64,000 bases of DNA from positions 1-64,000 of the forward strand of contig JACQWO010000017.1 of NCBI GenBank assembly GCA_016209225.1, in the 5' to 3' direction. The translations under genes and the position numbers were made by a program. The first letter of the stretch is position 1. The number at the start of each line of letters is the position of its first letter. The DNA is from Desulfobacterales bacterium. Lineage in GTDB: Bacteria; Desulfobacterota; UBA8473. The notes beneath the pieces were generated by a model, which saw nothing but the letters and a program-made list of their open reading frames with translations, did not search any database and was not told the origin of the DNA. Below are positions 15,437-58,598 of this stretch, piece by piece.

Positions 15437-16661
15437 TTACAATTTGGGTAAATACGTATCAAGCTCATATTGGCTCACATGGGTTCTGTACCTGTCCCAC
15501 TCAATCTTTTTATTTTCGATAAACTTATAGAAGATGTGGTCGCCCAGTGCTTCTCTCACAAGCTCACTCTTTTCCACTTCTAATATGGATTCATAGAGAT
15601 TGCCCGGCAGTTCATGGATGTTCATCTCCTTCCTCTTCTCAGGGCTGAAGTGATAGAGATCCTCCTCGATAGGGTCTGGTAAAGGATAGCCTTTTTCTAT
15701 ACCCTTGAGGCCTGCGGCCAGCATCACGGAAAAGGCAAGGTAGGGATTGCAGGCCGGGTCAGGGGAGCGAAACTCGATACGTGTAGCCTTCTCCTTGCCA
15801 GGTTTATACATAGGAATCCTTATCATAGCTTGCATGTTTCAGGAGTCCGGCAACATAGCTTTTGCCGATGTCCGAAAGGTGATATTTATCCTTGGAATTG
15901 TAAAAGGCATTTTGATCAGATTTAAACAGGGATTGATGGGTATGCATACCACTTCCATTGATTCCGAAGATGGGTTTTGGCATAAATGTGGCGTAAACCC
16001 CATTGCGTCTTGCTATCTCTTTCACTATAATCTTCAGGGTCATAGTCTTGTCAGCCATTCTTAAACCCTCGTCATACCTCATGTCAATCTCGTGCTGGCC
16101 TGGAGCTACTTCGTGGTGGCTGTATTCTATATCTATGCCTATCTTCTGCAGGGCAAAGATGGATTCTCTTCGTAACTGCCCGGCAGTATCCAGTGGGGTA
16201 GTGTCAAAATAACTACCCTCATCCAGTGGTATTGGGTTCTTATTATCGGTAAAATAGAAGAATTCCAGCTCCGGTCCCAGATAAAAAGTATACCCCTGGT
16301 CTTTTGCCTTTTGTAGAAGCCTTTTGAAGGCATACCGGGGATCACCCTTGTAGTGCGTTCCGTCTGGTTCAAGGATGTCGCAGAACATCCTGACAACAGG
16401 TTTCTCTTCATCCCGCCAGGGCAAAAACTCCAGGGTGGTGGGATCAGGCTTGGCGATCATATCGCTTTCTTCTATGCGGGCAAAACCCTCGATAGAAGAA
16501 CCATCAAAGCCCATTCCCTCGTCCAGTGCTTCATCGAGCTCGCCGGGTGTTATGGCAAAGCTCTTAAGATACCCAAGTACGTCGGTAAACCATAATTGGA
16601 TAAAACTTACATCTCTTTCCTTAACGATTTTCATTACATCTTCTTTTGTGCTGCAGATCAT
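15437..16661 (-). pseudogene. glnA: glutamine synthetase type I, disrupted by an internal deletion/frameshift
   Basis: Two frames together encode GlnA. The first (16661 down to about 15830) has the beta-grasp region, DGSSIEGF, PELEFFYF and the catalytic GINGSGMHTHQS, and breaks off after SYVAGLLKHA. The second resumes at AMIRIPMYKPGKEKATRIEFRSPDP and runs to YELDTYLPKL. Relative to normal GlnA (about 445 aa) some 36-38 residues are missing at the join, including the conserved NSYKRLVPG-EAP block, and the reading frame changes. Either the gene is truly broken or the assembly lost about 110 bp. It leads the minus-strand gene set glnB, amt, glnD, so a functional copy would be expected. Confidence 0.85.
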
Positions 16662-28002: not shown

Positions 28003-28190
28003 CAATGCATACATTTTTTGACTCATCTAAGCTCGTAAATCGTAAGTCGCGAGTCGTAAATAAAATAAATAAAAAGTATAACACCCATTCACGATTCACG
28101 ATTCACGATTTACGACTTCCGGTTTTTGACGATGTTCGCTCTCAGGGGTACATCTTCAAAGCTCTCGGCAGGTTGTGTAAAGGTCTCCTA
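28003..28190 (+). repeat. dispersed repeat G1 with nested palindrome F1
   Basis: The segment CATACATTTTTTGACTCATC at the start and GCTCTCAGGGGTACATCTTC further on recur almost unchanged at 40.46-40.64 kb. Between them lies a palindromic block of GTGAATC/GATTCAC words (28033-28119) of the F family. The short reading frame across it is not a credible gene. Confidence 0.75.
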
Positions 28191-29130: not shown

Positions 29131-29242
29131 ATTCGTGAATCGTAATTCGTGAATCGGAAATGGGTTTTATCCTATTTGCGACTTCTGACTTCTGATTTCT
29201 GACTCCTCTAAATTTTGCATACCTAAGGATTGCAAAATTTAG
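29131..29242. repeat. F-family palindromic words and a 12-bp hairpin after the ligase
   Basis: ATTCGTGAATCGTAATTCGT words at 29131-29155 belong to the F repeat family. Then CTAAATTTTGCA (29208-29219) pairs with TGCAAAATTTAG (29231-29242) directly after the ligase stop codon. The hairpin could pause or end transcription, or stabilise the ligase mRNA end, but it lacks a T-run. Confidence 0.55.
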
Positions 29243-41603: not shown

Positions 41604-41707
41604 GTAACTACTCAGGTTGTTTAGGCTGAAGGCTGTTAGTCGCGCATAATTTCCTCTTACAGCCCCGTTGTACAACGGGGCTACAGCCTATCCATCTTTT
41701 TATTTAC
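41604..41707. repeat. terminal-inverted-repeat element E4
   Basis: Left end GTAACTACTCAGG is intact and the right end is worn (ATTTAC). The inner block TTTAGGCTGAAGGCTGTTAG followed by GCGCATAATTTCCTC is nearly the reverse complement of the interior of E6 at 58.5 kb. It also contains the palindrome CCCCGTTGTACAACGGGG. It lies between folD and acsD. Confidence 0.7.
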
Positions 41708-43338: not shown

Positions 43339-45381
43339 ATGGCATCAGAAGAAGCCAAAGAAACTTTGAAGGTTGTAGAAAAAGAAAAAAAGAAGATCAA
43401 ACCCGAAGAAAAGAGTGTAGATCCTGCCACCATCCAAATGCTCTATAAGGCTCAACAAGATGGGGTAGAAACGATCTTTGATCGGGCTGAAACCATGAAA
43501 CCCTGCAATATTGGCATTCAGGGAACCTGTTGTAAGATGTGCGCCCAGGGTCCTTGCCGTCTTCCTTTAACCAAGAAGGATATGGAAGGAAAGGATACCC
43601 GAATGGGGCTCTGCGGGGCTACTCCAGAGACTATTGCCGCCCGCAATTTTGCCCGTATGATTGCTGCAGGAGCCGCTGCCCACTCTGATCACGGCCGAGG
43701 TGTGGCTGAGGTCTTTCTGGCTGCATCCCGTAAAGAGTCAGAGGATTATAAAATAAAAGACGAGAACAAGCTCAAAGAAATCGCCGGGGACTTTGGGGTA
43801 TCTACCACCGTATTGGTGGACGGTGAAGAGAAAGATCGGGATATATATGATATTGCCGTTGAAGTCGGCGAGAAGATATTGGGTGAATGGGGCAAACAGG
43901 AAGGAGAAATTTACTATGCCAAGCGCGCCCCCAAAGCCCGTTATGAACTCTGGAAAAAATTGGATGTTATCCCTCGAGGGATTGACCGGGAGATCGTCGA
44001 GATCATGCACCGAACCCACATGGGGGTTGATCAGGATTATGAAAACCTGATGAAACAGGGCTCCCGGGCAGCTCTGGCTGACGGCTGGGCCGGTTCCATG
44101 ATGGCTACCGATATGCAGGACGTCCTTTTTGGAACTCCGTATCCGATCCACGGGGAAATTAACCTGGGGGTTTTGAAAAAGGATCATGTGAATATCATCG
44201 TCCATGGCCATGAACCCCTTCTTTCAGAAATGATTGTCGTAGCCTCTCAGGACCCTGAGATGCTGCAGTATGCGGCTACCAAAGGGGCTAAAGGAATTGT
44301 ACTTGCAGGCATGTGCTGTACTGCCAACGAAATTCTGGTCCGCCACGGCATGCCCATTGCAGGAAACTACCTTCAGCAGGAGCTGGCATTGATTACAGGG
44401 GCAGTGGATGCTATGGTAGTGGATGTCCAGTGCATCATGGAAAATCTGGCTAATATTGCTCAATGCTACCATACAAAGCTGATAACCACCAATACACGGT
44501 GCAAGATCGCTTCCGGAGATACAATCCATATTCAATTTGACGAACACCATGCATTGGAAGATGCCAAACGGATCGTCAAAACAGCTATCGATAATTTCCC
44601 CAACCGGAAGGCCGAAGTCCTGATTCCAAAGGAGAAGGAAATGATGGTGGTAGGTTTCAGTTACGAGGCGATTAATTACCATCTGGGTGGGACCTTCCGG
44701 GGGTCTTATACGCCGTTAAATGATAACATCATAAACGGCCGTATCCGCGGGATTGGCGGCGTGGTGGGCTGCAACAATGCCCGGACTATGCATGACAGCG
44801 CTCATTTAATTGTCGTCAAGGAACTTTTGAAAAACGACGTCATCGTCCTGACCACAGGCTGTAACGCCATGGCCTGCGGGAAGGCTGGGCTCCTGACCCC
44901 GGAAGCGGCGAGGATATACTGTGGACCTGGACTCGCCGAGGTCTGCGAAACAGTGGGAATTCCACCAGTCCTCCATATGGGCTCCTGCGTGGACAATAGC
45001 CGTATACTAATGGCCGCTACTGAAGTGGTTAAGGCCGGGGGGCTGGGGAATGACATCAGTGATCTCCCTGCCGCCGGATGTGCCCCGGAATGGATGAGTG
45101 AGAAAGCCATCTCCATTGGGCAATACTTTGTTGCCTCCGGGGTCTATACTCTCTTTGGAGTCAACCTCCAGGTTGAAGGGTCTCCAGTCTTCAAGGATTA
45201 CCTTTTTAATGGGATGGAAAAGGTCTTTGGCGGCAAATGGGATCTGGTCGAAGACCCTTATGAAATGGCCCGCAAGATGATTGCCCATATAGATGCCAAA
45301 CGCAAGGCTCTGGGTATTGATAAGGCTCGGGAGCGGGTGCTCATGGATATGGCTGACCGGCAGAAACTGGAGGCAGCTTAA
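43339..45381 (+). CDS. cooS: carbon monoxide dehydrogenase catalytic subunit
   Basis: A 680-residue Ni-Fe CO dehydrogenase (AcsA/CooS type), the carbonyl-branch enzyme that reduces CO2 to CO. B/D-cluster cysteines lie in CNIGIQGTCCKMCAQGPCR (residues about 55-73). C-cluster ligands include the His in IIVHGHEPLLSEM, Cys in GMCCTANEILVRHG and Cys in GCNAMACGKAG. The first 35 residues are a Lys/Glu-rich extension. It lies between acsD and acsB, as in acetogen clusters. Its maturation factor CooC is encoded 3 kb upstream. Confidence 0.95.
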   Translation: MASEEAKETLKVVEKEKKKIKPEEKSVDPATIQMLYKAQQDGVETIFDRAETMKPCNIGIQGTCCKMCAQGPCRLPLTKKDMEGKDTRMGLCGATPETIAARNFARMIAAGAAAHSDHGRGVAEVFLAASRKESEDYKIKDENKLKEIAGDFGVSTTVLVDGEEKDRDIYDIAVEVGEKILGEWGKQEGEIYYAKRAPKARYELWKKLDVIPRGIDREIVEIMHRTHMGVDQDYENLMKQGSRAALADGWAGSMMATDMQDVLFGTPYPIHGEINLGVLKKDHVNIIVHGHEPLLSEMIVVASQDPEMLQYAATKGAKGIVLAGMCCTANEILVRHGMPIAGNYLQQELALITGAVDAMVVDVQCIMENLANIAQCYHTKLITTNTRCKIASGDTIHIQFDEHHALEDAKRIVKTAIDNFPNRKAEVLIPKEKEMMVVGFSYEAINYHLGGTFRGSYTPLNDNIINGRIRGIGGVVGCNNARTMHDSAHLIVVKELLKNDVIVLTTGCNAMACGKAGLLTPEAARIYCGPGLAEVCETVGIPPVLHMGSCVDNSRILMAATEVVKAGGLGNDISDLPAAGCAPEWMSEKAISIGQYFVASGVYTLFGVNLQVEGSPVFKDYLFNGMEKVFGGKWDLVEDPYEMARKMIAHIDAKRKALGIDKARERVLMDMADRQKLEAA

Positions 45382-45462
45382 ACACAGGTAGATAGACTGA
45401 AGGCGGAAGACTGTTAGGACACTTCAGCCTAAGCACTTCAAAAGAAAGGAGGATTTTTCTCA

Positions 45463-47676
45463 ATGTCTAAGTTAGTTGCTTTTGCCGCCATTCAAGGCGC
45501 ATACAATATCGTTTCCAAAGCCGAGGGGACTCTCAAAAAGGCCATGGACAAATACGGGCCGGATCAAAAGATCGAGTTCCCCAATACGGCTTATTATCTT
45601 CCTATTATCTATTCTATCCTTGGTATCCCGGTAAAAACACTGGGGGATGCCAGGAAACCCATGGAAGCAGCCAGAAAACTCCTGCCGGCGCATGTTAAGA
45701 ATATGCACCACCTGCCCTACTTGGGGCCTCTGTTAGATGCCGGTATGTCTGCCCTTTTTGCCGAGGAAGTGGCAGAGGCTATTCGTTACCTGGAAGACCC
45801 GGATTTCTATCTGGTCAGTGAGGACATAGATGAGACCTCGGGAAAAATATGGCTTGGAGCCGCTGAAGATACGGTCTTCCGTAAACGAGGAGTTGAATTT
45901 GTGGATGGAACCGCCCCGGGTTTTGCGGCTATCGTCGGAGCTGCTCCTGATCCTGAGACGGCCAAGTGGATTGCGGAAGAATACCAGAAAAAGAACCTCT
46001 ATGTTTTCATGTGTGCCAACCAAAATGGCACCACTTTTTCAGAGCAGCTTCTGGAAGCCGGGGTACAGATCGGCTGGAATACCCGTCTGGTTCCTTTTGG
46101 ACCTGATATCTCCGCCGCGGTGTTTGCCCTGGGTTTTGCCAACCGGGCGGCTATGGCCTTTGGGGGGATCAAACCAGGGGATTACAAGAAGATGCTTATC
46201 TATAATAAGGAACGAATCTTTGCCTTTGTCAATGCATTGGGTGAGGTGAATGCCGAATGGGCAGCCAATGCTGCCGGTTGTGTCAACTGGGGGTTCCCCA
46301 CCATTGCCGATACCGATATCCCTGAAATCCTCCCTACCGGAGTCTGCACGTACGAACATGTGGTCGCTAATGTTCCTCACAGGGAAATGCCCCAAAGGTC
46401 TATTGAGATTAGGGGTCTTAAGGTAACCGTGGCTAATGTGGATATCCCGTTGGCGTATGGTCCGGCATTCGAAGGGGAGCGGGTAAGAAAAGACGACCTT
46501 TACCTGGAGATGGGTGGTGGAAGGACCCAGGCGGTTGAGCTCTGCAGTATGGCAGACATGAAGGAGATTGAAGACGGCCAGATAGAAGTAATAGGGCCTG
46601 ATATTAAGGATATAAAGAAGGGCGATAGGCTTCCCCTTGGTATCTTTGTCCAGGTTGCAGGACGTCAGATGCAGGAAGACTTTGAGCCTATCCTTGAAAG
46701 GCAGATACATCACCTTATCAATTATGCCCAGGGTGTTATGCACATTGGGCAACGGGATATTGCATGGATCAGGGTTGGTGAACAGGCTGTGAACAAAGGG
46801 TTTACCCTCAGGGACATCGGGGTGATCCTCCATGCTAAACTACACCAGGATTTCGGTGCCATTCTGGATAAGGTGCAGGTTACTCTTTATACTAAGAAAG
46901 AGGATGTGGACAAGTTGACCGCTACTGCCAGGGAAAATTACAAGAAACGCGATGCCAGGGTGGAACAGATGACGGATGAGGGTGTGGAGACCTACTATTC
47001 CTGCACTTTGTGCCAGTCCTTTGCTCCCAACCATGTGTGCATGGTGAGCCCGGAGAGGACAGGTCTCTGCGGTGCTTATAACTGGATGGACTGCAAGGCT
47101 TCTTATGAGATCAACCCCACCGGTCCAAACCAGCCGGTAGAAAAAGGTGAATGTATCGATCCGAAACTTGGGCAGTGGAAGGGTGTAAATGATTTTATCT
47201 ATAAGGCATCGCGGCAGAATGTAACCCATTATAACTTCTATAGTCTTGTCCATGATCCTATGACCACCTGCGGATGCTGTGAATGTATCGCAGCTGTGAT
47301 TTCCGCATGTAACGGGGTGATGACAGTAGGTAGGGATTACACTGGAGAGACCCCGACGGGGATGAAATTTACGACTCTCGCCGGAGTTATGGGCGGCGGA
47401 GCATCCTCACCCGGATTCGTAGGACACAGCAAATACAATATTTGCCAGCGGAAGTTCATTTCCGGAGACGGCGGGCTGCTGCGGATGGTCTGGATGCCCA
47501 AAGGGCTGAAAGAGGAACTCAGAGAAGGATTATTAAGGCGGGGAGAGGAATTGGGATGCCCTGACTTGATCGATAGGATAGCTGACGAAACGGTGGGTGT
47601 CACCGAAGATGAGATTTTGCCTTTCTTAAAGGAGAAAGATCATCCGGCGCTAAAAATGGATCCTATCATAGGCTGA
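45463..47676 (+). CDS. acsB: acetyl-CoA synthase (CO dehydrogenase/acetyl-CoA synthase subunit beta)
   Basis: A 737-residue bacterial-type acetyl-CoA synthase, including the N-terminal domain that archaeal CdhC lacks. It joins CO, a methyl group and CoA at the Ni-Ni-Fe4S4 A-cluster. All ligands are visible: YYSCTLCQSFAPNHVC and GLCGAYNW (about residues 514, 517, 526 and 536), and the CGC pair in TTCGCCECI (about 602-604). It has a clear ribosome site (AAAGGAGG) and follows cooS by 81 bp. It delivers acetyl-CoA from the cluster's methyl and carbonyl branches. Confidence 0.96.
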   Translation: MSKLVAFAAIQGAYNIVSKAEGTLKKAMDKYGPDQKIEFPNTAYYLPIIYSILGIPVKTLGDARKPMEAARKLLPAHVKNMHHLPYLGPLLDAGMSALFAEEVAEAIRYLEDPDFYLVSEDIDETSGKIWLGAAEDTVFRKRGVEFVDGTAPGFAAIVGAAPDPETAKWIAEEYQKKNLYVFMCANQNGTTFSEQLLEAGVQIGWNTRLVPFGPDISAAVFALGFANRAAMAFGGIKPGDYKKMLIYNKERIFAFVNALGEVNAEWAANAAGCVNWGFPTIADTDIPEILPTGVCTYEHVVANVPHREMPQRSIEIRGLKVTVANVDIPLAYGPAFEGERVRKDDLYLEMGGGRTQAVELCSMADMKEIEDGQIEVIGPDIKDIKKGDRLPLGIFVQVAGRQMQEDFEPILERQIHHLINYAQGVMHIGQRDIAWIRVGEQAVNKGFTLRDIGVILHAKLHQDFGAILDKVQVTLYTKKEDVDKLTATARENYKKRDARVEQMTDEGVETYYSCTLCQSFAPNHVCMVSPERTGLCGAYNWMDCKASYEINPTGPNQPVEKGECIDPKLGQWKGVNDFIYKASRQNVTHYNFYSLVHDPMTTCGCCECIAAVISACNGVMTVGRDYTGETPTGMKFTTLAGVMGGGASSPGFVGHSKYNICQRKFISGDGGLLRMVWMPKGLKEELREGLLRRGEELGCPDLIDRIADETVGVTEDEILPFLKEKDHPALKMDPIIG

Positions 47677-47678
47677 TC

Positions 47679-47798
47679 GTAACTACTCAGGTTCAAAGTT
47701 CCAGGGTCCAAGGTTAAAGGTTAGAGCAACCAACCGTGAACCGTGAACTGTGAACCTGACAACCTGAGAACCGTGAACCTGACAACCTGAATAGTTAC
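47679..47798. repeat. terminal-inverted-repeat element E3
   Basis: GTAACTACTCAGG at the left and CCTGAATAGTTAC at the right. The interior is GTGAACC/CCTGACAACCTGA words in direct and inverted order. It lies between acsB and acsC, starting 2 bp after the acsB stop. No convincing target duplication is seen. Confidence 0.8.
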
Positions 47799-47831
47799 CT
47801 GTGTATAAATAGTTGAGGAGGAAAGATCGTT

Positions 47832-49178
47832 ATGGCTCTTACAGGTATAGAGATTTTTAAATTGCTCCCTAAAACAAATTGCAAGGAATGTGGCGTTCCT
47901 ACCTGCCTTGCCTTTGCGATGAATCTGGCGGCGGGAAAGGCTGAACTTTCCGCCTGTCCCTATGTCTCTGAAGAGGCAAAGGAGAAACTCGCAGAAGCCT
48001 CCGCTCCTCCCATAAGGCAGCTTACGGTTGGATATGGAGACAGACCGGTAAAGGTGGGAGGAGAGACAGTTCTTTACCGTCACGAGAAGACCTTTTTTAA
48101 TCCAACCGGACTGGCCGCTCTATTGACTACTGATATGGATTCAGATACTGTTGATATGAAACTGAGGAAATGGGATACCTTTCAGTATGAGAGGGTAGGC
48201 TTGAACCTTAGGCCAGAACTTGTAGCCGTCAAAGACACCAATGGCGATGCTGGAAAATTCGAGACCCTGACAAAGCAAGTGGCAGACACCAGCAATTTCA
48301 GCTATATTCTTATGAGTGAGGATAGCGATGTTATGGCTGCAGGCATCAAGGCAAAGAGTGGAACGAATCCCCTCATATATGCTGCCACCAATGACAATTT
48401 TGAAAAGATGGCAAAATTGGCAGAGGAAAGCAAATGTCCTCTGGCGATTAAAGGCACTAACATTGACAATTTAATCGAGTTGTCGGATAAGGCAACTGCC
48501 CTGGGGCTTAAAGATTTGGTGCTTGATTCAGGAGCAAGATCGATAAAACAGGTTTATGAAGATCAGATTGCCATCAGGAGGGCGGCGCTTCTTGCCAAAA
48601 ACAAGTCCCTGGGATTTCCTACGATTTCGTTCCCCTTTGAAATGGCAGAGACCCTGGAACAGGAAACACTTGTTGCCTCGATGCTGATTGCAAAGTATGG
48701 CAGCATAGTAGTGATGTCAGATTTCGATGGTGCGAGCCTTTTCCCACTTCTCCTGGAACGTTTGAATATTTACACCGATCCCCAGCGTCCCATGGTAGTG
48801 ACACAGGGGATCTACGAGATCAATAATCCGGACGAAAACTCGCCGATTTGTATTACGTCTAATTTTGCCCTTACTTACTTTATTGTTTCCGGAGAGATTG
48901 AAGGCAGCAAGGTCCCTACATGGCTTTTGATTATTGATACTGAAGGACTTTCAGTTATGACGGCATGGGCAGCAGGCAAATTCGTAGGCGATGCACTGGG
49001 GATATTTATTAAGAAGTGTGGCATCATGGATAAGGCTAAGACAAAAAAGATAATTATTCCTGGGTATGCAGCGTCTATCAGTGGAGACCTGGAAGAGGAG
49101 CTGGGAGATTGGGAAGTGGCAATCGGACCAAGAGAGGCTGCCCATATCCCTGCCTACTTGAGGCAACTGGCTGCATAA
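47832..49178 (+). CDS. acsC: corrinoid iron-sulfur protein large subunit (AcsC/CdhE)
   Basis: A 448-residue large subunit that binds both the corrinoid and one [4Fe-4S] cluster. The cluster site CKECGVPTC with a further Cys in SACPYVSEE lies in the first 45 residues. The central TIM barrel and the C-terminal corrinoid-binding region (TEGLSVMTAWAAGKFVGDAL, IIIPGYAASISGDLEEEL) are complete. It accepts the methyl from AcsE and passes it to AcsB with AcsD as partner. Confidence 0.95.
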   Translation: MALTGIEIFKLLPKTNCKECGVPTCLAFAMNLAAGKAELSACPYVSEEAKEKLAEASAPPIRQLTVGYGDRPVKVGGETVLYRHEKTFFNPTGLAALLTTDMDSDTVDMKLRKWDTFQYERVGLNLRPELVAVKDTNGDAGKFETLTKQVADTSNFSYILMSEDSDVMAAGIKAKSGTNPLIYAATNDNFEKMAKLAEESKCPLAIKGTNIDNLIELSDKATALGLKDLVLDSGARSIKQVYEDQIAIRRAALLAKNKSLGFPTISFPFEMAETLEQETLVASMLIAKYGSIVVMSDFDGASLFPLLLERLNIYTDPQRPMVVTQGIYEINNPDENSPICITSNFALTYFIVSGEIEGSKVPTWLLIIDTEGLSVMTAWAAGKFVGDALGIFIKKCGIMDKAKTKKIIIPGYAASISGDLEEELGDWEVAIGPREAAHIPAYLRQLAA

Positions 49179-49220
49179 GAAACTCGTCCATCAACTCTAG
49201 ATAAAAAGAGAGGGGTAAGT

Positions 49221-50114
49221 ATGTTACGAATCGGAGAGAATTTAAATGTAATGGTGACGAAGATTGGCGCTGCCATGAAGGAGAAAGATCCTGGCCCCAT
49301 CAGAGAGCTGGCGAAAGCAGAAGCGGAGAAAGGAGTGAACTGGATTGACATTAATCTGGGACCGGCGAGAAAAGGTGGACCTGAATTAATGGAGTGGATT
49401 GTAAAGACCGTTCAGGAGGTGGTGCCGGATATACCTCTGGCTTTAGACACATCTAATATAGAGGCTATTGAGGCAGGGCTGAAGGTCCATAAAGGAAAAG
49501 CGATGATAAACTCGATCATGGCAAGACCTGAGAGGATGGATGCTATGATACCCTTGGCGGCAAAATACAATGCCCAGGTTATAGGCTTGCTCTGGGGACC
49601 TTCGGGAATGCCCCGAGATGAAAATGAAAGATCGGAGCTCGCTGTAACTCTGGTTTCCGCCATGCTGGAAGCCGGCATAGCCCCGGAGGATATCTTCGTG
49701 GATCCCATTATGACACCGGTCAACGTCCAGCAAGACCAGATAAAGAGTATGATAAATTTTATGATGATGTTTTCCGATATAGCAGAAGCCCTGGCGCCAG
49801 GGCTAAAATCCACCTGTGGTTTATCGAATGTCTCTAATGGGGCACCTGAACACTTACGACCCATACTGAACCAGACATTTATAGTAATTTTAGAAAAGTA
49901 TGGGATGTACTCAGCAATAGTTGATGCCTTTGATGAGGAAATGACCGCCTTCTGTAAGGGTGAGAGACCGAAGATCAAGAAAATAATCGAGGATGTTTGT
50001 GACGGCAATGAACCGAATCCAGCATCATTGACAAAAGAAGAACTCGATTATGTAAAAACGGCCAAGGTTCTTCTGGGACATTCCCTCTATTCGGATTCGT
50101 GGCTTGAACTCTAA
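49221..50114 (+). CDS. acsE: methyl-THF:corrinoid Fe-S protein methyltransferase
   Basis: A 297-residue pterin-binding TIM-barrel methyltransferase that moves the methyl group of methyl-THF to the cobalt of AcsCD. It begins MLRIGENLNVMVTKIGAAM and has the pterin-contact segments WIDINLGPARKGG, LALDTSNIEAIEAGL and TCGLSNVSNGAPEHLR. It is slightly longer than Moorella AcsE (about 262 aa). It directly follows acsC (42 bp). Its product links the methyl branch, ended by MetFV, to the carbonyl branch. Confidence 0.94.
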   Translation: MLRIGENLNVMVTKIGAAMKEKDPGPIRELAKAEAEKGVNWIDINLGPARKGGPELMEWIVKTVQEVVPDIPLALDTSNIEAIEAGLKVHKGKAMINSIMARPERMDAMIPLAAKYNAQVIGLLWGPSGMPRDENERSELAVTLVSAMLEAGIAPEDIFVDPIMTPVNVQQDQIKSMINFMMMFSDIAEALAPGLKSTCGLSNVSNGAPEHLRPILNQTFIVILEKYGMYSAIVDAFDEEMTAFCKGERPKIKKIIEDVCDGNEPNPASLTKEELDYVKTAKVLLGHSLYSDSWLEL

Positions 50115-50412: not shown

Positions 50413-50979
50413 ATGGAAGCTAAAGTGCTGTTAGAAAGAAATAACAGGTCATCTTTTATTCAAGAAATAGAGGATAAACGAGAGGTTGAAATCTCTTCCT
50501 GCTTTCAATGTAAGAAATGTTCCAATGGCTGCCCGGTAAACTTTGCTATGGAAATTATGCCCCATAAGATAATACATATGATTCGTTTAGGGTTAAAGGA
50601 TGAGGTATTAAAGAGTTCTACCATGTGGGCATGTGCTTCATGCGAAACGTGCACTACCAGATGCCCAAATAATATAGATATTGCTAAATTGATGGATGCC
50701 TTAAGACAGATTGCCACTGATTCAGGGTTTGATACGGCACAAAAAGATGTTCCTATATTCCACTCAGCTTTTCTTTCATCAATTAAGAAGAGGGGAAGAA
50801 TTCATGAATTGGGTATGATAGGAGAATATAAATTAAAGACCGGGGACTTTATGAAGGATTCCAGGCTGGGGTGGGAGATGTTCAAAAGAGGAAAGTTAAA
50901 AATCCTGCCTTCTGGAATTAGAGGAAGAAAAGAGATTAGAGGTATCTTTGATGAAGCGGGGAGGAGAAAGAGATCATGA
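50413..50979 (+). CDS. hdrC: heterodisulfide reductase subunit C-like protein
   Basis: A 188-residue ferredoxin-type HdrC with two [4Fe-4S] sites, CFQCKKCSNGCPV (about 35-47) and CASCETCTTRCPN (about 77-89). It passes electrons between HdrA and HdrB. The stop overlaps the hdrB start (ATGA). In the MetFV-HdrABC-MvhD type complex, it links the flavin subunit to the site at HdrB. The gap to acsE contains element E2 and no further gene. Confidence 0.92.
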   Translation: MEAKVLLERNNRSSFIQEIEDKREVEISSCFQCKKCSNGCPVNFAMEIMPHKIIHMIRLGLKDEVLKSSTMWACASCETCTTRCPNNIDIAKLMDALRQIATDSGFDTAQKDVPIFHSAFLSSIKKRGRIHELGMIGEYKLKTGDFMKDSRLGWEMFKRGKLKILPSGIRGRKEIRGIFDEAGRRKRS

Positions 50980-51827
50980 GGGTTTCCTATTACCCGGGTT
51001 GCTCACTAGAAGGCAGTGCCCGGGATTACGATGAATCCCTTAGGGCGGTATTTGATGTGTTGGGCATTGAACTGAGGGAGCTAGAGGATTGGAATTGCTG
51101 TGGGGCAAGCTCGGCGCATATAACTGATGATTTTCTGTCAACGGCATTGCCTATGAGGAATCTGGAGATTGCAGAGAAAGAGAATAATGATTTGCTTATC
51201 CCCTGCATGGCGTGTTTTAACAGGTTAAAAAGCGCAGAAAAGGCGGCGATCGGTGAAATAAAAACGGATGTAAAGACATCCTATAAGGGTAAGATAAAGA
51301 TTAAACATATTCTGGACTTTTTAAGCGAGGATGGAAACCTAGCCCTTATAGGAAGGTTTGTTAAAAAGCCTTTAACAGGCATGAAGATTGTATCTTACTA
51401 TGGGTGTTTGTATGCGCGTCCTCCAAAGATTACGGATGTAACTGATTATGAAGACCCCAGGAGCATGGATAAATTGGTAAATATTTTAGGGGCAGAGAGC
51501 AGGCCATGGTCATTTAAGACAGATTGCTGTGGTGGCAATTTAGCCTTGACCAGGATTGACATCTTAAAGAGATTGGGCAATAACCTTTTTGATATGGCCG
51601 TTGAAGCCGGAGCTGATTGCATTGCGGTGGCATGCCCTCTGTGCCATGCCAACCTGGATACAAGGCAGAAGGAGATATCTGATGAATATGGAAAGGGATA
51701 TTATCTGCCTGTGTTCTATATAACTGAATTAATAGGGTTGTCTATGGGGCATAGTGATGTTGAAAAGTGGCTCCGAAGACATCTGGTCGATCCAATAGGG
51801 CTTTTAAGGTCAGTGGGGCTTATGTAA
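50976..51827 (+). CDS. hdrB: heterodisulfide reductase subunit B-like protein
   Basis: A 283-residue HdrB with two cysteine-rich CCG domains. The first has YYPGCSLEGSARDYDES, WNCCGAS and IPCMACFNR. The second has SYYGCLYARPP, TDCCGGNLALT and ACPLCHANLD. These bind the unusual non-cubane [4Fe-4S] clusters that cleave disulfides in methanogens. In this genome it probably transfers electrons to MetFV rather than to CoM-S-S-CoB. It overlaps hdrC by 4 bp. Confidence 0.93.
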   Translation: MRVSYYPGCSLEGSARDYDESLRAVFDVLGIELRELEDWNCCGASSAHITDDFLSTALPMRNLEIAEKENNDLLIPCMACFNRLKSAEKAAIGEIKTDVKTSYKGKIKIKHILDFLSEDGNLALIGRFVKKPLTGMKIVSYYGCLYARPPKITDVTDYEDPRSMDKLVNILGAESRPWSFKTDCCGGNLALTRIDILKRLGNNLFDMAVEAGADCIAVACPLCHANLDTRQKEISDEYGKGYYLPVFYITELIGLSMGHSDVEKWLRRHLVDPIGLLRSVGLM

Positions 51828-51899
51828 ATCGTGAATCGTGAATGGTGATTCGTAAATAAAAAAACGGTTCACGGTTCACGGTTCACGATTCACGAATAA
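51827..51899. repeat. F-family palindromic repeat between hdrB and hdrA
   Basis: GTGAATCGTGAATGG words on the left face CGGTTCACGGTTCACG and GATTCACGAAT words on the right. The same word family occurs at 28.03-28.12, 29.13 and 56.87-56.93 kb. Confidence 0.75.
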
Positions 51900-51912: not shown

Positions 51913-54900
51913 ATGTCGGATAGTAATCAACTAAAGATAGGTTCGGTGATGATCATCGGTGCCGGCATTGCCGGAATGCAGGCATCTCTAGACCTGGCAA
52001 ATTCTGGTTTTAAGGTATATCTGGTGGATGAATCAACGTCTATTGGTGGAAGAATGGCCCAACTGGATAAGACATTTCCCACCAATGACTGTTCTATGTG
52101 TACAATTTCTCCCAAGCTTATTGAATGCGACAAGCATCTCAATATTGACATAGTAACAAATGCTAAGGTAGAGAACGTACAGGGGGAGCTGGGGAACTTC
52201 AAGGTAACAGTATTGAAGCGCCCCAGGTTTATAGATGTTGAGAAGTGTAATGCTTGCGGTGATTGTATAGAGGTTTGCCCGGTAGATGTCTTTGCCGAAT
52301 TTGAAGAGGGACTGACAGACCGAAAGGCCATTTATAAAAACTTCCCCCAGGCTATACCCAGTGCATACGCTATAGATAAAAAAGGCACCTCTCCATGCAA
52401 GGCTACATGTCCGGCTCATATCCATGTTCAGGGATATATAGCCCTTATCGCAAAGGGCAGGTATGAAGAGGCGCTGGCGCTTATCAAAAAGGATAATCCC
52501 CTTCCTGCAATCTGCGGAAGAGTATGTCATCATCCCTGTGAGGCAAGGTGTACAAGAGGTAAAGTGGATGAACCGGTAGCCATTGATTTTCTGAAGCGGT
52601 TTGTTGCAGACATAGAGCTTACATCAAAAGAGAAGAAACTGCCGGAGATCGAAGAAAAAAGGGAAGAGAGGATAGCCATTATAGGTTCAGGACCCGCAGG
52701 GTTAACTTCGGCCTATTATTTGGCATTGAAAGGCTACAATGTGACGGTCTTTGAGTCACTTCCTGTGGCAGGCGGGATGCTGGCTGTGGGAATCCCGGAG
52801 TATCGGCTGCCAAAGGATATACTCAATGCAGAGATAGATTATATAAGAGGGCTTGGGGTTGAAATAAGAACAAATACCAAAATAGGGGTGGACCTGACAA
52901 TCCAGGACCTGAAAAAAGATGGATACAGCGCCATATTTTTGGCGGTTGGCTCTCATATCAGCAGAAAATTGGGTATAGAAGGAGAAGACTTTCAGGGGGT
53001 GGTGCACGGTGTCCACTTTTTAAGGGATATAAGTCTTGGGAAGAAGGTTCCCCTTGGGGAAAGGGTGGCTGTAATAGGGGGAGGCAATGTTGCCATCGAT
53101 TCTGTTAGAACAGCCTTAAGATTGGGGGCTAAGGAGGCATTTATAATATATAGAAGGTCTATAGAAGAGATGCCTGCCAATGAGGAGGAGATAGAGGAAG
53201 CAGAAGAGGAGGGTATCAAGATTCATTGTCTGGTAGCCCCTGTCAGGATTTTGGGCAAGGATGGAAGGGTTGTCGGACTCGAATGTATAAGAATGAAATT
53301 GGGAGAGCCGGATGAGAGTGGGAGAAAGAGGCCTATCCCTATTGAAGGTTCAGGATTCGTTATGGACGTGGATGCGGTTATCCCTGCTATAGGTCAGTCT
53401 CTTGATACGGCATTTATGTCGCCGGAGATTGGACTAAAGCTGGCCAAAGGGGATATCATTGAGATAGATTCGGTTACTTATGCTACAAATATACCAGGGA
53501 TATTTGCTGGGGGAGATGCTGCTTCAGGCCCAGCCACTGTTATAGAAGCTATAGCTGCCGGTAAGAAAACCGCTGTTTCTATTGACAGGTATTTAAAGGG
53601 AGAGGATCTACACGAAGGCAGGGGTGATGTGCAGGAGGAGATAGAGGTAGATACCCACGGAATCGAGAGATCAGCCCGTCAGAGAATGCCAAGACTCCCC
53701 GTGAAAGAGAGGATAGGCAGTTTTAATGAGGTTCAGTTGGGGTTTTCTGAGTCCCAGGTCATTGAAGAAGCAAATAGATGCTTGAATTGTGGTATCTGCA
53801 GTGAGTGTTTGCGTTGTGTTGAGGCATGTACTGCAAAGGCCATAAACCACCAGATGAATGAGGAGCTTGTTGATATAGGTGTAGGCTCTATAATATTAAC
53901 CCCGGGATATGAAGAGTTCCATGCAGATATAAAAGGAGAATATGGTTATGGCAGGATGAAGAATGTAGTCACAAGTCTGGAGTTTGAAAGGATACTGTCG
54001 GCTTCAGGCCCTTACCATGGTCATGTTTTACGTCCCTCGGATCAAGCAACCCCCAAGAGGATAGCATGGATTCAATGTGTAGGTTCTCGTGATGCCTCTT
54101 GCGGCAAAGATTACTGTTCATCGGTTTGCTGCATGTATGCAACAAAGGAAGCAATCATGGCAATAGACCATGTAGAAGGTCTTGAAGCGACTGTTTTCTA
54201 TAACGATATACGGGCATTTGGAAAGGGTTTTGAGTCCTACTATGAGACGGCAAAGAAAAAATACGGGGTGAGATATATAAAGAGTATTGTCTCAAGTGTA
54301 AAAGAGCTTCAAAAGACCAATAGCCTTCTTATGAAGTACACCGCTGATGACGATCAGATCAAAGAAGAAGAGTTTGATATGGTAGTTCTATCCGTTGGTT
54401 TGGTGCCGTCACCCGGCACGAGGGAATTGGCTGAAAAGCTCTCAGTACAACTGAATCAGTATGGTTTCTGTGAGACTAAAACCCTTGCACCCAATATAAC
54501 ATCGAAGCCGGGGGTTTATGTTGCCGGCGCCTTTGAAGCGCCTATGGACATTCCGGAAGCAGTGATGACGGCAAGCAGCGCTGCATGTCTATCTTCAGAG
54601 CTCCTTTCCAGTGAAAGGGGGAGTATGGTCAGAGAGAAAACCTATCCCCCTGAAAGGGAAATCGCTTCTGAGGAAGAAAGGGTAGGGGTTTTTGTCTGTA
54701 GATGCGGGACAAATATAGCAAGGGTTGTAGATGTCCCTGAGGTAGCCGAATATGCCAAAACGCTCCCCGGGGTTGTTCATGCTGAAGAGAATCTCTTTAC
54801 TTGTTCTACCGACACCACCAGTAATATGATAGATATTATAAAGGAAAAGGGTATAAACAGAGTGGTTGTGGCATCATGCACTCCAAGAACCCACGAACCC

Positions 54901-56334
54901 CTTTTCCAGGATACCCTGAGAGAGGCGGGGCTTAACAAGTACTTGTTTGAAATGGCAAATATCAGGGATCAATGTTCCTGGGTTCATGCAAATCACCCGG
55001 CCGAGGCTACTGAGAAGGCAAAGGATTTAATCCGGATGGCAGTGTCCAGAGCCAATACATTGGAGCCTTTGCAGGAACTTCCTTTCAACGTTATTCCCCG
55101 TGGTCTTGTCGTGGGAGGGGGGGTAACTGGTATGACCGCTGCCCTTTCTTTGGCTTCTCAAGGGTACGAGACCTACCTTGTTGAAAAGACGAGTGAGCTT
55201 GGTGGTAATGCCAGGGATCTGCATTACACTCTGGATGGAATGGAACCAAGTAAGCATGTTGAATACTTGATTCAACAGGTAGAGAACCAGGATAGGATAA
55301 AGGTCTTTAAAGATTCCCATATAGTTGAATTCTCCGGTCATGTAGGAAACTTTAAGACCAGGGTTTCCACTGGCGGGGAGTTAAATGAGTTGGAACACGG
55401 TGTGGTGATAATTGCTACAGGAGGGGTTGAGTACAAACCAACAGAGTACCTCTATGGGCAAGATGAAAGGGTATTGACCCAGCGAGAATTGGAAAAGAAG
55501 ATAGTCGCATCTAAAGAGGGGTTTAAGGATATAAAAGATGTTGTCATGATTCAATGCGTGGGTTCCAGAGACGATGCACACCAGTTCTGTAGCCGGGTGT
55601 GTTGCACAGAGGCAGTAAAGAACGCCATTAAGCTTAAGGAGATTAACCCGGATATTAATGTTTATGTCCTTTACAGGGATATAAGAACTTATGCTTTCAA
55701 AGAACTTTACTATAAAAAAGCAAGAGAGGCTGGTGTGGTATTTATCCGATACGATGCAGATAGAAAACCGAAGGTTACCTCTTCCAACAGCCGGCTTGAG
55801 CTGGAGGTATTCGATGAAACCCTGGGAGCAGAGATTACTTTAAAACCAGATTGCCTTGTATTAAGTGCGGGAATCCATCCCCGTCCTGATGCTCCCGACC
55901 TGGCCACCACATTTAAGCTGCCCCTCAATATGGACGGCTATTTTCTGGAAGCCCATATGAAGTTACGACCATTGGATTTCTCTAATGATGGCATATACCT
56001 GTGTGGATTAGCCCATTCACCGAAATTCATAGAGGAGAGCATATCTCAAGCCAGGGGAGCAGTTGCCAGAGCCTGTACAGTACTCTCTAAAGATCAGATG
56101 TATGTGAGCGGGATGATATCGGTGGTTGATGAGGAGAGGTGCGCTGCGTGTCTTACCTGTGTCAGGGTATGCCCCTTTGATGTTCCGTCTATAAATGAAG
56201 AAGGAGTGGCAGTAATAGAAGCAGCATCATGCCAGGGATGTGGTATCTGTGCTTCGGCCTGTCCGAGGAAGGCCATAAGCCTTCAGAATTACAAGGACGA
56301 TCAGGTTATAGCAAAGTGTGCGGTTTTGTGCTAG
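51913..56334 (+). CDS. hdrA: giant HdrA: HdrA - GltD/NfnB-like - HdrA fusion flavoprotein
   Basis: A 1473-residue protein, roughly twice normal HdrA. Module 1: FAD loop GAGIAGMQASLDLA (about residue 16), NDCSMCTISPKL, ferredoxin CNACGDCIEVCP (about 112). Module 2, inserted: CKATCPAHIHVQGY (about 162), second FAD loop GSGPAGLTSAYY (about 257), NAD(P)-type loop GGGNVAIDS (about 387) and GDAASGPATVIEA, as in GltD/NfnB. Module 1 then resumes with CLNCGICSECLRCVEAC and CVGSRD (about 721). Module 3 is a second HdrA from about 925 (VCRCGTNIA, VVGGGVTGM about 1066, CVGSRDDA about 1214) ending in two ferredoxin sites (about 1410 and 1439). It should accept NAD(P)H and bifurcate electrons to HdrBC and MvhD. 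Confidence 0.93.
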   Translation: MSDSNQLKIGSVMIIGAGIAGMQASLDLANSGFKVYLVDESTSIGGRMAQLDKTFPTNDCSMCTISPKLIECDKHLNIDIVTNAKVENVQGELGNFKVTVLKRPRFIDVEKCNACGDCIEVCPVDVFAEFEEGLTDRKAIYKNFPQAIPSAYAIDKKGTSPCKATCPAHIHVQGYIALIAKGRYEEALALIKKDNPLPAICGRVCHHPCEARCTRGKVDEPVAIDFLKRFVADIELTSKEKKLPEIEEKREERIAIIGSGPAGLTSAYYLALKGYNVTVFESLPVAGGMLAVGIPEYRLPKDILNAEIDYIRGLGVEIRTNTKIGVDLTIQDLKKDGYSAIFLAVGSHISRKLGIEGEDFQGVVHGVHFLRDISLGKKVPLGERVAVIGGGNVAIDSVRTALRLGAKEAFIIYRRSIEEMPANEEEIEEAEEEGIKIHCLVAPVRILGKDGRVVGLECIRMKLGEPDESGRKRPIPIEGSGFVMDVDAVIPAIGQSLDTAFMSPEIGLKLAKGDIIEIDSVTYATNIPGIFAGGDAASGPATVIEAIAAGKKTAVSIDRYLKGEDLHEGRGDVQEEIEVDTHGIERSARQRMPRLPVKERIGSFNEVQLGFSESQVIEEANRCLNCGICSECLRCVEACTAKAINHQMNEELVDIGVGSIILTPGYEEFHADIKGEYGYGRMKNVVTSLEFERILSASGPYHGHVLRPSDQATPKRIAWIQCVGSRDASCGKDYCSSVCCMYATKEAIMAIDHVEGLEATVFYNDIRAFGKGFESYYETAKKKYGVRYIKSIVSSVKELQKTNSLLMKYTADDDQIKEEEFDMVVLSVGLVPSPGTRELAEKLSVQLNQYGFCETKTLAPNITSKPGVYVAGAFEAPMDIPEAVMTASSAACLSSELLSSERGSMVREKTYPPEREIASEEERVGVFVCRCGTNIARVVDVPEVAEYAKTLPGVVHAEENLFTCSTDTTSNMIDIIKEKGINRVVVASCTPRTHEPLFQDTLREAGLNKYLFEMANIRDQCSWVHANHPAEATEKAKDLIRMAVSRANTLEPLQELPFNVIPRGLVVGGGVTGMTAALSLASQGYETYLVEKTSELGGNARDLHYTLDGMEPSKHVEYLIQQVENQDRIKVFKDSHIVEFSGHVGNFKTRVSTGGELNELEHGVVIIATGGVEYKPTEYLYGQDERVLTQRELEKKIVASKEGFKDIKDVVMIQCVGSRDDAHQFCSRVCCTEAVKNAIKLKEINPDINVYVLYRDIRTYAFKELYYKKAREAGVVFIRYDADRKPKVTSSNSRLELEVFDETLGAEITLKPDCLVLSAGIHPRPDAPDLATTFKLPLNMDGYFLEAHMKLRPLDFSNDGIYLCGLAHSPKFIEESISQARGAVARACTVLSKDQMYVSGMISVVDEERCAACLTCVRVCPFDVPSINEEGVAVIEAASCQGCGICASACPRKAISLQNYKDDQVIAKCAVLC

Positions 56335-56340
56335 TTTAGG

Positions 56341-56426
56341 ATAACTGCTCAGGTGGATAGCCTGTAGACTGTTAGCCTGTAGCCTAACAGCCTTCAGCCT
56401 ACAGTCTAAACAACCTGAGTAGTAAC
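56341..56426. repeat. terminal-inverted-repeat element E5
   Basis: ATAACTGCTCAGG ... CCTGAGTAGTAAC around GCCTGTAGACTGTTAGCCTG words and their reverse. Flanking octamers AGTTTAGG and AATTTGGG agree at 6 of 8 positions, a probable decayed target duplication. It lies between hdrA and mvhD. Confidence 0.78.
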
Positions 56427-56452: not shown

Positions 56453-56872
56453 ATGAATGAATTTGAGCCGAAAGTAGTTGCCTTTTGCTGTCAGTACTGT
56501 GCCTATTCTGCTGCGGATTTAGCAGGTTCCATGAGGCTCCAGTACTCCCCAAACGTCAGGATTGTAAAGCTGATGTGTACTGGTAAAGTAGACGTAATAC
56601 ACTTGTTAAAGGCGTTTGAAGGTGGGGCAGATGCTGTCTTTGTTGCAGGGTGAGAGGAAGGAGAATGTCATTTCCTGGAAGGAAATCTGAGGGCTAAGAA
56701 GCAGGTGCAGTACGCCAAAAAGCTGCTGGATGAGGTTGGCATTGATAGCAGAAGGGTAGAAATGTTCAATATGGGCGCATCAGATGCCCAAAAATTTACA
56801 GGTGCGTCCGATAAGATGACAGAAAGGGCAAGGGAACTTGGCCCGAATCCCATAACGGCAAAAAAACCGTGA
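56453..56872 (+). CDS. mvhD: MvhD-type electron-transfer subunit, predicted selenoprotein (in-frame TGA)
   Basis: With the TGA at 56651-56653 read as selenocysteine, the frame encodes 139 residues, the normal MvhD size. Before the TGA are VAFCCQYCAYSAADLAG, RIVKLMCTGKVD and GADAVFVAG. After it come EEGECHFLEGNLRAKKQVQY and the family ending RARELGPNP. In ordinary MvhD proteins VAG is followed by Cys in the pattern GC-x-x-G-x-CHY, so Sec replaces one Fe-S ligand cysteine. A hairpin 17 nt after the TGA is a candidate SECIS. MvhD passes electrons between a hydrogenase, formate dehydrogenase or ferredoxin and HdrA. Sec forms of related delta subunits are known in Methanococcales. Confidence 0.85.
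56670..56686 (+). promoter_or_regulatory. candidate bacterial SECIS hairpin
   Basis: ATTTCCT pairs with AGGAAAT around GGA (7-bp stem), beginning 17 nt downstream of the in-frame TGA of mvhD. Distance and a guanine-containing loop fit the bacterial SelB-binding element. Confidence 0.55.
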
Positions 56873-56937
56873 ATCGTGAATCGTAAATGGTGAATGGTTT
56901 ACGATTTACGACTTACGATTCACGATTCACGAAGTTG
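56869..56937. repeat. F-family palindromic repeat between mvhD and metV
   Basis: CGTGAATCGTGAATCGTAAA words are mirrored by TTTACGACTTACGATTCACG around GGTGAATGGTTTACG. The mvhD stop codon lies at its left edge. Confidence 0.75.
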
Positions 56938-56949
56938 AGAGGTGAAGGT

Positions 56950-57618
56950 ATGATTGTAGCGGATAGAAAACCACTGGAACAGATCTCTTCAATGATTGAA
57001 GGTAACAACAAGATATTAATAGTTGGTTGTGGTGAATGTGTTTCAGTCTGTATGGTTGGGGGGGAGAAAGAGGTTGAGATACTTGCTTCTCAGCTCCGAA
57101 TGGCGGCAGGAAAAGAAGGAAAGAAAATAGAGATTGGAGAAGCAACCTTAGAAAGACAGTGCGATAAAGAATACCTGGAACTTCTGAAGGACAGGATAGA
57201 GAATTATGATGTGGTTGTGTCTATGGCATGCGGCGCTGGAGTTCAATTTTTGGCTGAGATGTATGACCATAAGATAGTCCTTCCCGCAACGAACACCAGG
57301 TTCATCGGTGTCACAGAGGGGGAAGGGGTATGGACAGAAAGATGCAGGGCATGCAGCGATTGTGTGCTGGCTGAGACAGGTGGGATCTGCCCTGTTACCA
57401 TATGCGCCAAGGGCCTTTTAAACGGCCCCTGTGGTGGTACAAATGATGGAAAATGCGAGGTGTCTAAAGAAAAAGACTGTGCATGGACCCTCATATATAA
57501 TAGGTTAAACAAACTTGGCAGACTCGACAGTATCCGAGAGATATTTCCTGCGAAGAAATACAATGTCCAAACCAGACCCGGGCGGAGAATCCACGAAGCT
57601 TTCAAAGAAAAGGAGTAA
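56950..57618 (+). CDS. metV: methylene-THF reductase zinc/Fe-S subunit MetV
   Basis: A 222-residue protein of the MTHFR C-terminal-like family. Cysteine motifs are CGECVSVCMVGGEKE near 20-35, RCRACSDCVLAETGGICPV near 133-151, and GPCGGTNDGKCEVSKEKDC near 160-178, binding [4Fe-4S] clusters. The start at MIVADRKPLEQ is chosen over 56887 because the upstream 21 codons lie in the palindromic repeat and GAGAGGTGAAGG precedes this Met. MetV feeds electrons from the Hdr subunits to MetF. It is followed 3 bp later by metF. Confidence 0.92.
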   Translation: MIVADRKPLEQISSMIEGNNKILIVGCGECVSVCMVGGEKEVEILASQLRMAAGKEGKKIEIGEATLERQCDKEYLELLKDRIENYDVVVSMACGAGVQFLAEMYDHKIVLPATNTRFIGVTEGEGVWTERCRACSDCVLAETGGICPVTICAKGLLNGPCGGTNDGKCEVSKEKDCAWTLIYNRLNKLGRLDSIREIFPAKKYNVQTRPGRRIHEAFKEKE

Positions 57619-57621
57619 TTC

Positions 57622-58509
57622 ATGGCAAAGTCATTTAAAGAGGCTCTTGAATCCGGAAAATTTGTTGTAACCGCAGAAGTAGGTCCCCCTAAGGGAACCG
57701 ATATAGAAGAGATGCTTCACCATATAGATCTCCTTAAAGACAAAGTGGACGGCCTTAATGTCACTGATAATCAGAGTTCGGTAATGAGGCTTTCGTCTAT
57801 ATCCGTATCTCATATAATTAAGGAAAAGGGCGGAGAACCCATCCTTCAAATGACGTGCAGAGACAGAAACAGGCTGGCATTAGAATCGGATTTGATTAGT
57901 GCAAATATTTTGGGTGTAGACAATGTTCTCTGTTTAACCGGAGATTATATTACTGTGGGCGATCATGTGGAGGCCATGCCTGTCTTCGATCTTGATTCTG
58001 TGCTTCTGCTTAAGACTGTCAGGCTACTTGAAAGTGGGAAAGACTCGGGAGGAAATGAATTAAAGGGGGCAGCCAGGTTCTGTGCCGGGGCTATCGTAAC
58101 CCCTGAGGCCAACCCCATTGAACCTCAACTTCTTAAGTTTGAGAAAAAGATAAAGGCCGGCGCTGAGTTCTTCCAGACTCAGGCCATATATGATCTGGAC
58201 AATTTTAAAAAATTTATGAAGTATGCACGGCAGTTCAATGTAAAGATACTCGCGGGCATAGTGCTTCTTGTCTCCTCAGGTATGGCAAAGTATATGAACG
58301 CCAACGTGCCCGGGATTTTCGTTCCCAAGGATTTAATTGATGAAATGGCAGGCGCTGAAAAGGGAAAGGCACTGGAAAAGGGTATCGAAATAGCAGGACG
58401 TATGATTAAAACCCTCAAAGATGAAAATATTTGTGATGGGGTACATATAATGGCTATAGGGAAAGAAGGGAAAGTGCCTGACATCCTGGCGGCTGCCGGT
58501 CTTGCTTAA
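57622..58509 (+). CDS. metF: methylenetetrahydrofolate reductase MetF
   Basis: A 295-residue FAD TIM-barrel that reduces methylene-THF to methyl-THF, the last methyl-branch step. It begins SFKEALESGKFVVTAEVGPP with the catalytic Glu, has VDGLNVTDNQSS, LCLTGDYITVGDH and AEFFQTQAIYDLDNFKKF. The length matches the Moorella-type MetF that depends on MetV, and metV lies directly upstream. It is the final gene of the Wood-Ljungdahl block. Confidence 0.95.
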   Translation: MAKSFKEALESGKFVVTAEVGPPKGTDIEEMLHHIDLLKDKVDGLNVTDNQSSVMRLSSISVSHIIKEKGGEPILQMTCRDRNRLALESDLISANILGVDNVLCLTGDYITVGDHVEAMPVFDLDSVLLLKTVRLLESGKDSGGNELKGAARFCAGAIVTPEANPIEPQLLKFEKKIKAGAEFFQTQAIYDLDNFKKFMKYARQFNVKILAGIVLLVSSGMAKYMNANVPGIFVPKDLIDEMAGAEKGKALEKGIEIAGRMIKTLKDENICDGVHIMAIGKEGKVPDILAAAGLA

Positions 58510-58519
58510 AAGATTCTAC

Positions 58520-58598
58520 GTAACTGCGAAGAACGATAGGCTGTAGGAGGAAATTATGCGTGACTAACAGCCTTCAGCCTAAACGCCTAAGTAGTTAC
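58520..58598. repeat. terminal-inverted-repeat element E6
   Basis: Right end CCTAAGTAGTTAC, left end worn (GTAACTGCGAAG). The interior GGCTGTAGGAGGAAATTATG and CTAACAGCCTTCAGCCTAAA is the reverse complement of the core of E4, with a few substitutions. Confidence 0.7.

Follow-up and report, generated by a model that had tools for sequence, protein, structure and literature searches.

The mvhD gene, a member of the FlpD family, lies in a window of 64,000 nucleotides (the whole stretch of DNA that was analysed) from a Desulfobacterales bacterium, and it carries a TGA inside its reading frame. Does this codon end a short protein, or is it read as selenocysteine (Sec)? An earlier note made from the letters of the window had proposed the second.

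Reading frame of mvhD and its in-frame TGA

The frame opens at ATG 56453, with a ribosome-binding-like AAGGA a few bases 5' of it, and runs in phase into TGA 56651-56653. Translation with table 11 gives a 66-aa ORF, the truncated gene that the earlier note had foreseen from standard annotation, and reading the TGA as Sec gives the 139 aa that it had expected, ended by TGA 56870-56872. Conservation was said to continue on both sides of the TGA, and it does: in a Pfam profile search PF02662 (FlpD) spans the codon unbroken, over residues 8-130 with 160.7 bits (cut-off 22.3). The solved chains nearest to the translated protein are MvhD/VhuD subunits, with 9sfi_K at the top. The TGA takes the place of the Cys in VAGC-x3-G-x-C; the motif had been given as VAGC...GxCHY, which is right for the Cys but wrong for the ending, as the window has VAGU-EEGECHF. 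Between the window gene and same-genus copies, dN/dS 3' of the TGA was 0.05-0.12, which means that the part behind the TGA is both translated and required.

Homologs were collected from 99 related genomes, one scan of genome contigs and 40 fetched regions, which were mostly MvhD copies, and 141 distinct MvhD homologs were aligned. Part of this sample was picked for having TGA, so its proportions are no frequencies (the positions are unaffected): codon 67 was Cys in 102 and TGA in 39 homologs and nothing else, TGA stood at codon 16 in 47 of the 141, and no homolog had TGA at both codons or at any other aligned codon up to 135. The TGA is thus exactly at a conserved Cys of the family, as had been claimed. 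Codons 13, 42 and 72 were Cys in all 141 homologs, and 7 distant members carry another residue at codon 16. Each of the four listed same-genus orthologs (G001-G004) had TGA at codon 67. Besides mvhD, a scan of the window for further TGA-interrupted genes, judged by eye, gave no convincing candidate.

Table 1. Positions of mvhD, its recoding signals and the surrounding genes in the window.
Feature	Position	Strand	Evidence or remark
CODH/ACS cluster, upstream of hdrC	43339-50114	+	NCBIfam matches
CO dehydrogenase	43339-45381	+	NCBIfam match
Acetyl-CoA synthase	45463-47676	+	NCBIfam match
CODH/ACS gamma subunit	47832-49178	+	NCBIfam match
CODH/ACS methyltransferase	49221-50114	+	NCBIfam match
hdrC-like gene	50413-50979	+	Fer4 domains; order conserved in relatives
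hdrB-like gene (CCG domain)	50976-51827	+	PF02754; order conserved in relatives
hdrA, 1473 aa, without in-frame TGA	51913-56334	+	Domain matches, alignment to 5odc_A
mvhD (FlpD family), 139 aa, Sec at codon 67	56453-56872	+	PF02662 across TGA; stop TGA 56870-56872
UGA codon 67 read as Sec	56651-56653	+	Homolog alignment: Cys or UGA in 141/141
SECIS hairpin	56670-56686	+	Arms 56670-56676 and 56680-56686; loop GGA 56677-56679; comparative evidence
metV-like gene	56950-57618	+	PF12225; adjoins mvhD in Sec67 clade
metF (methylenetetrahydrofolate reductase)	57622-58509	+	PF02219, NCBIfam

SECIS hairpin and selenocysteine machinery

A 7-bp hairpin had been noticed 17 nt after the TGA; it exists (AUUUCCU-GGA-AGGAAAU), but begins 16 nt past the TGA, with 23 nt from UGA to loop. 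The published model of bacterial SECIS elements has a stem of 4-16 bp, a loop of 3-9 nt with G in the first two loop positions, a UGA-to-loop distance of 16-37 nt and an MFE <= -7.5 kcal/mol (PMC13188914). With 7 bp, loop GGA and 23 nt, the geometry of the mvhD hairpin agrees with this model. Its energy was -4.9 kcal/mol when imposed and about -7.0 kcal/mol in the local fold against the threshold of -7.5, and a differing fold of the 54-mer reached -7.9. By energy alone the hairpin is nothing special (z = +0.70), and its reality rests on comparative evidence.

In genes with TGA at codon 67 (Sec67), the sequence CATTTCCTGGAAGGAAAT is nearly invariant 3' of the TGA with few exceptions, and no such constraint is seen in Cys homologs. 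It is kept also in the Sec67 genes of Chloroflexota, where other synonymous sites are saturated relative to the window. Codons 73-78 of the Sec67 set had the six lowest synonymous diversities of 84 residue-conserved degenerate codons, and the chance of this is about 2e-7 if codons are exchangeable. In genes with TGA at codon 16 (Sec16) these codons vary freely, and five of the six codons with the lowest synonymous diversity are codons 21-25; in the Cys set neither stretch is constrained. The Sec67 helix pairs were kept in 97.6% of cells, compared with at most 72% in slid controls and 0 of 500 shuffles as high, and five Sec67 rows carried a compensatory U-A to A-U double change. The Sec16 hairpin varies so little that it showed no covariation. 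One homolog, L176, is without the common motif, and an alternative hairpin, GCCACU-AUGUG-AGUGGC, is possible there when read by eye. A scan of the mvhD locus against Rfam gave no family above cut-off, just weak miRNA/lncRNA-like chance matches.

We identified SelA (contig C58, 551 bits), SelD (contig C19, 390.6 bits) and tRNA-Sec with anticodon TCA (UCA) on contig C32. Near 1130-1203 of contig C19 an in-frame TGA stands at the usual Sec site of SelD, which is probably itself a selenoprotein. A search found no SelB over cut-off in this assembly, and the same search found SelB in 32 of 39 genomes; a weak match on contig C10 was the start of EF-Tu and was rejected. SelB is present in the same-genus genome G004, where selB is next to genes for a lytic-transglycosylase-like protein and a DegP-like protease. 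In the genome of the window, contig C58 ends with the transglycosylase-like and DegP-like genes and, after them, an insertion-sequence end that is repeated at many other contig ends. This multi-copy insertion sequence (C58 60079-60266 and C32 1-119) breaks the assembly by the expected place of selB and by the tRNA-Sec gene. Since C58 breaks at the place where selB is expected, the absence of SelB is likely an assembly gap; true loss of selB from the genome is the less likely reading. Of the four genes selA, selB, selC and selD that the earlier note had asked for, all but selB were thus found, and its objection of an absent machinery does not hold.

Sec67, Sec16 and Cys forms of MvhD

Some homologs appear to have exchanged Sec for Cys recently. 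Codon 67 is TGC beside an unaltered SECIS sequence in L077, and TGT in L087, whose SECIS sequence differs by one change. In L046 it is TGC and the SECIS is broken; L045 and L047, of the same genus, have TGA. By their sequences, we regard the codons of L077, L087 and L046 as recent Sec-to-Cys changes. On a tree of this short protein, in which many forks are without resolution, the three states (Sec67, Sec16 and Cys) needed 20 changes versus 62.5 in shuffles, and some Sec67 rows sit among Sec16 rows. Dehalococcoidia MAGs (L074-L092) have Sec67 MvhD 73-80% identical to the window protein in an identical gene order, which suggests transfer between phyla.

The genome of the window has two other MvhD copies with TGA. 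One (contig C53, 75507-75920; L025, L037) belongs to a second HdrCBA-MvhD-MetVF cluster, found some 19 kb further downstream on the contig of the window and beyond the window's end; it carries TGA at Cys16 with its own conserved downstream hairpin. The third (contig C79, 8019-8387; L029) also has TGA at Cys16, is only 40% identical and is without the common Sec16 hairpin sequence.

We tentatively propose, at slightly less than even odds, that bacterial MvhD carries Sec at Cys16 or Cys67 but never at both, each with its own SECIS and a CCUGG-N-AGG apex common to the two, that the position has swapped repeatedly, and that both Cys are cluster-proximal. The exclusivity could stem from the bacterial SECIS needing a place inside the gene after each UGA. 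The SECIS of archaea is usually in the 3' UTR, and with such an element archaeal VhuD could carry Sec at both positions. VhuD (probably PDB 9sfi/9t1s) aligns end to end with the window protein and also has a non-standard residue at position 67. In chain 9sfi_K positions 16 and 67 are both X, as is the residue at the established Sec site (CxxU) in the HdrA chain of 9sfi; the X residues in 9sfi_K are therefore most likely Sec. VhuD thus appears to have Sec at 16 and 67, whereas MvhD of the window has it at 67, and the partner of VhuD is a hydrogenase or Fdh whereas that of the window MvhD is MetVF. Probably, then, a Sec-bearing structure of the MvhD type is already solved.

In Deltaproteobacteria and methanogens, the MvhD/FrhD proteins have long been recognised as a selenoprotein family, to which the window gene adds a well-supported case. 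A catalogue of 2006 already lists eight FrhD/MvhD selenoproteins from Syntrophobacter and one from Moorella (PMC1794560), Desulfobacterium autotrophicum has four (mvhD1, 2, 3 and 5; PMC2702500), and a review counts the family as verified (PMC13188914). Bacterial members such as those of Syntrophobacter fumaroxidans and D. autotrophicum and FrhD of Moorella thermoacetica share with the window gene the family, UGA at a conserved Cys, the HdrA neighbour and a bacterial SECIS (PMC1794560, PMC2702500); in the window gene Sec replaces Cys67 and stands within a MetVF operon. A limited literature search, which is no proof of novelty, found no description of either-or use of the two Sec positions in bacterial MvhD, nor of MvhD with Sec at Cys67 in MetVF operons common to Desulfobacterota-like and Chloroflexota genomes.

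Decoding of UGA 67 and the predicted complex

That mvhD is a decaying pseudogene, or encodes a functional truncated protein of 66 residues with TGA as a real stop, would fit the standard annotation and the missing SelB match, but it is very improbable in view of the strong purifying selection 3' of the TGA, the TGA common to four same-genus orthologs and many other homologs, and the RNA hairpin conserved behind it. Slightly less credible still is decoding of UGA as another amino acid through a code change or near-cognate readthrough: of the 43 long ORFs in the window, 14 end in TGA, homologs always have Cys at the aligned position wherever they do not have TGA, and tRNA-Sec, SelA and SelD are present, although SelB-independent readthrough is compatible with the DNA alone. 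An error turning TGC or TGT into TGA, which the earlier note had named as a refutation, could be suspected in a draft of 95 contigs. It is the least probable of these readings, because the four same-genus genomes were assembled independently and have TGA, as have Chloroflexota, and an error would not produce the codon-level SECIS constraint.

The position of the TGA, the conservation flanking it, the lineage-wide SECIS, the Cys homologs, the Sec-to-Cys relics and SelA, SelD and tRNA-Sec all agree with the selenoprotein proposed at the outset, and MvhD almost certainly is one, with UGA 67 decoded as Sec. The best explanation, with a probability of about 96%, is a 139-residue MvhD in a Moorella-type complex, in which SelB and tRNA-Sec would insert Sec at UGA 67 under the direction of the hairpin.

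The gene order is CODH/ACS, hdrC, hdrB, hdrA, mvhD, metV and metF. From hdrC to metF this is the Moorella-type set (M. thermoacetica, Sporomusa ovata; PMC9430772), shared with Chloroflexota. HdrA has an N-terminal HdrA part, a GltD/NfnB-like NAD(P)H insert (about residues 159-560) and two HdrA flavin domains, the first with E692 in LEFERI and the K of CCMYATK, the second with E1194 in RELEKK and the K of CCTEAVK. Both pairs align with E356 and K409 of 5odc_A. E/K residues mark bifurcating flavins, and a GltD insert with E/K at both flavin sites is the Moorella-type layout (PMC9430772); both flavin domains keep this signature here beside the insert. HdrA of M. thermoacetica has the same layout with at least 1487 aa, compared with 1473 aa here; the gene set and the build of HdrA are shared with the Moorella complex, and the window MvhD is a selenoprotein at Cys67.

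Several repeats and one broken gene were also observed in the window. Palindromic intergenic repeats, with a period of 7 bases (AATCGTG...), lie at 28084-28117, 29131-29157, 51827-51897 and 56865-56934, with 23 matches versus 1.3 expected; the mvhD stop codon is inside the last of them, and a similar element lies 3' of the second mvhD. The intergenic repeat AACAGCCTTCAGCCTA occurs at 41622-41637, 56386-56401 and 58566-58581, and two of its copies flank the mvhD-metVF genes. On the - strand (15437-16661) glutamine synthetase is split into ORFs of 285 aa and 132 aa that are out of frame with each other, and where they meet a piece seems to be missing, which may be an error or a real disruption.

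In solved Hdr complexes the [2Fe-2S] cluster of MvhD passes electrons to the bifurcating FAD (PMC12350162, PMC6019823). MvhD of the window would be the [2Fe-2S] electron-transfer subunit of the predicted HdrCBA-MvhD-MetVF complex, which would act in the Wood-Ljungdahl pathway as methylene-THF reductase and is encoded next to CODH/ACS. Since Sec67 replaces one of four positions that are always Cys or Sec, it is probably a ligand of the cluster or in direct contact with it. Sec67 would adjust how fast, or at what potential, electrons move between the NAD(P)H/flavin part of HdrA and the bifurcating flavins; the direction of the electrons and an energetic benefit are presumed.

The reading of mvhD corrects a gene that routine annotation cuts to 66 aa, in a central electron-bifurcating complex of carbon fixation. 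What it adds to the known family is modest: a Moorella-type HdrCBA-MvhD-MetVF context that Chloroflexota share, and the apparently exclusive use of one Sec position in bacteria. If the either-or reading is true, selenium at one position or the other gives the needed effect. With Sec67, Sec16 and Cys forms occurring in nature, and Sec-to-Cys conversions inside a single genus, the role of selenium beside an electron-transfer [2Fe-2S] cluster becomes directly testable.
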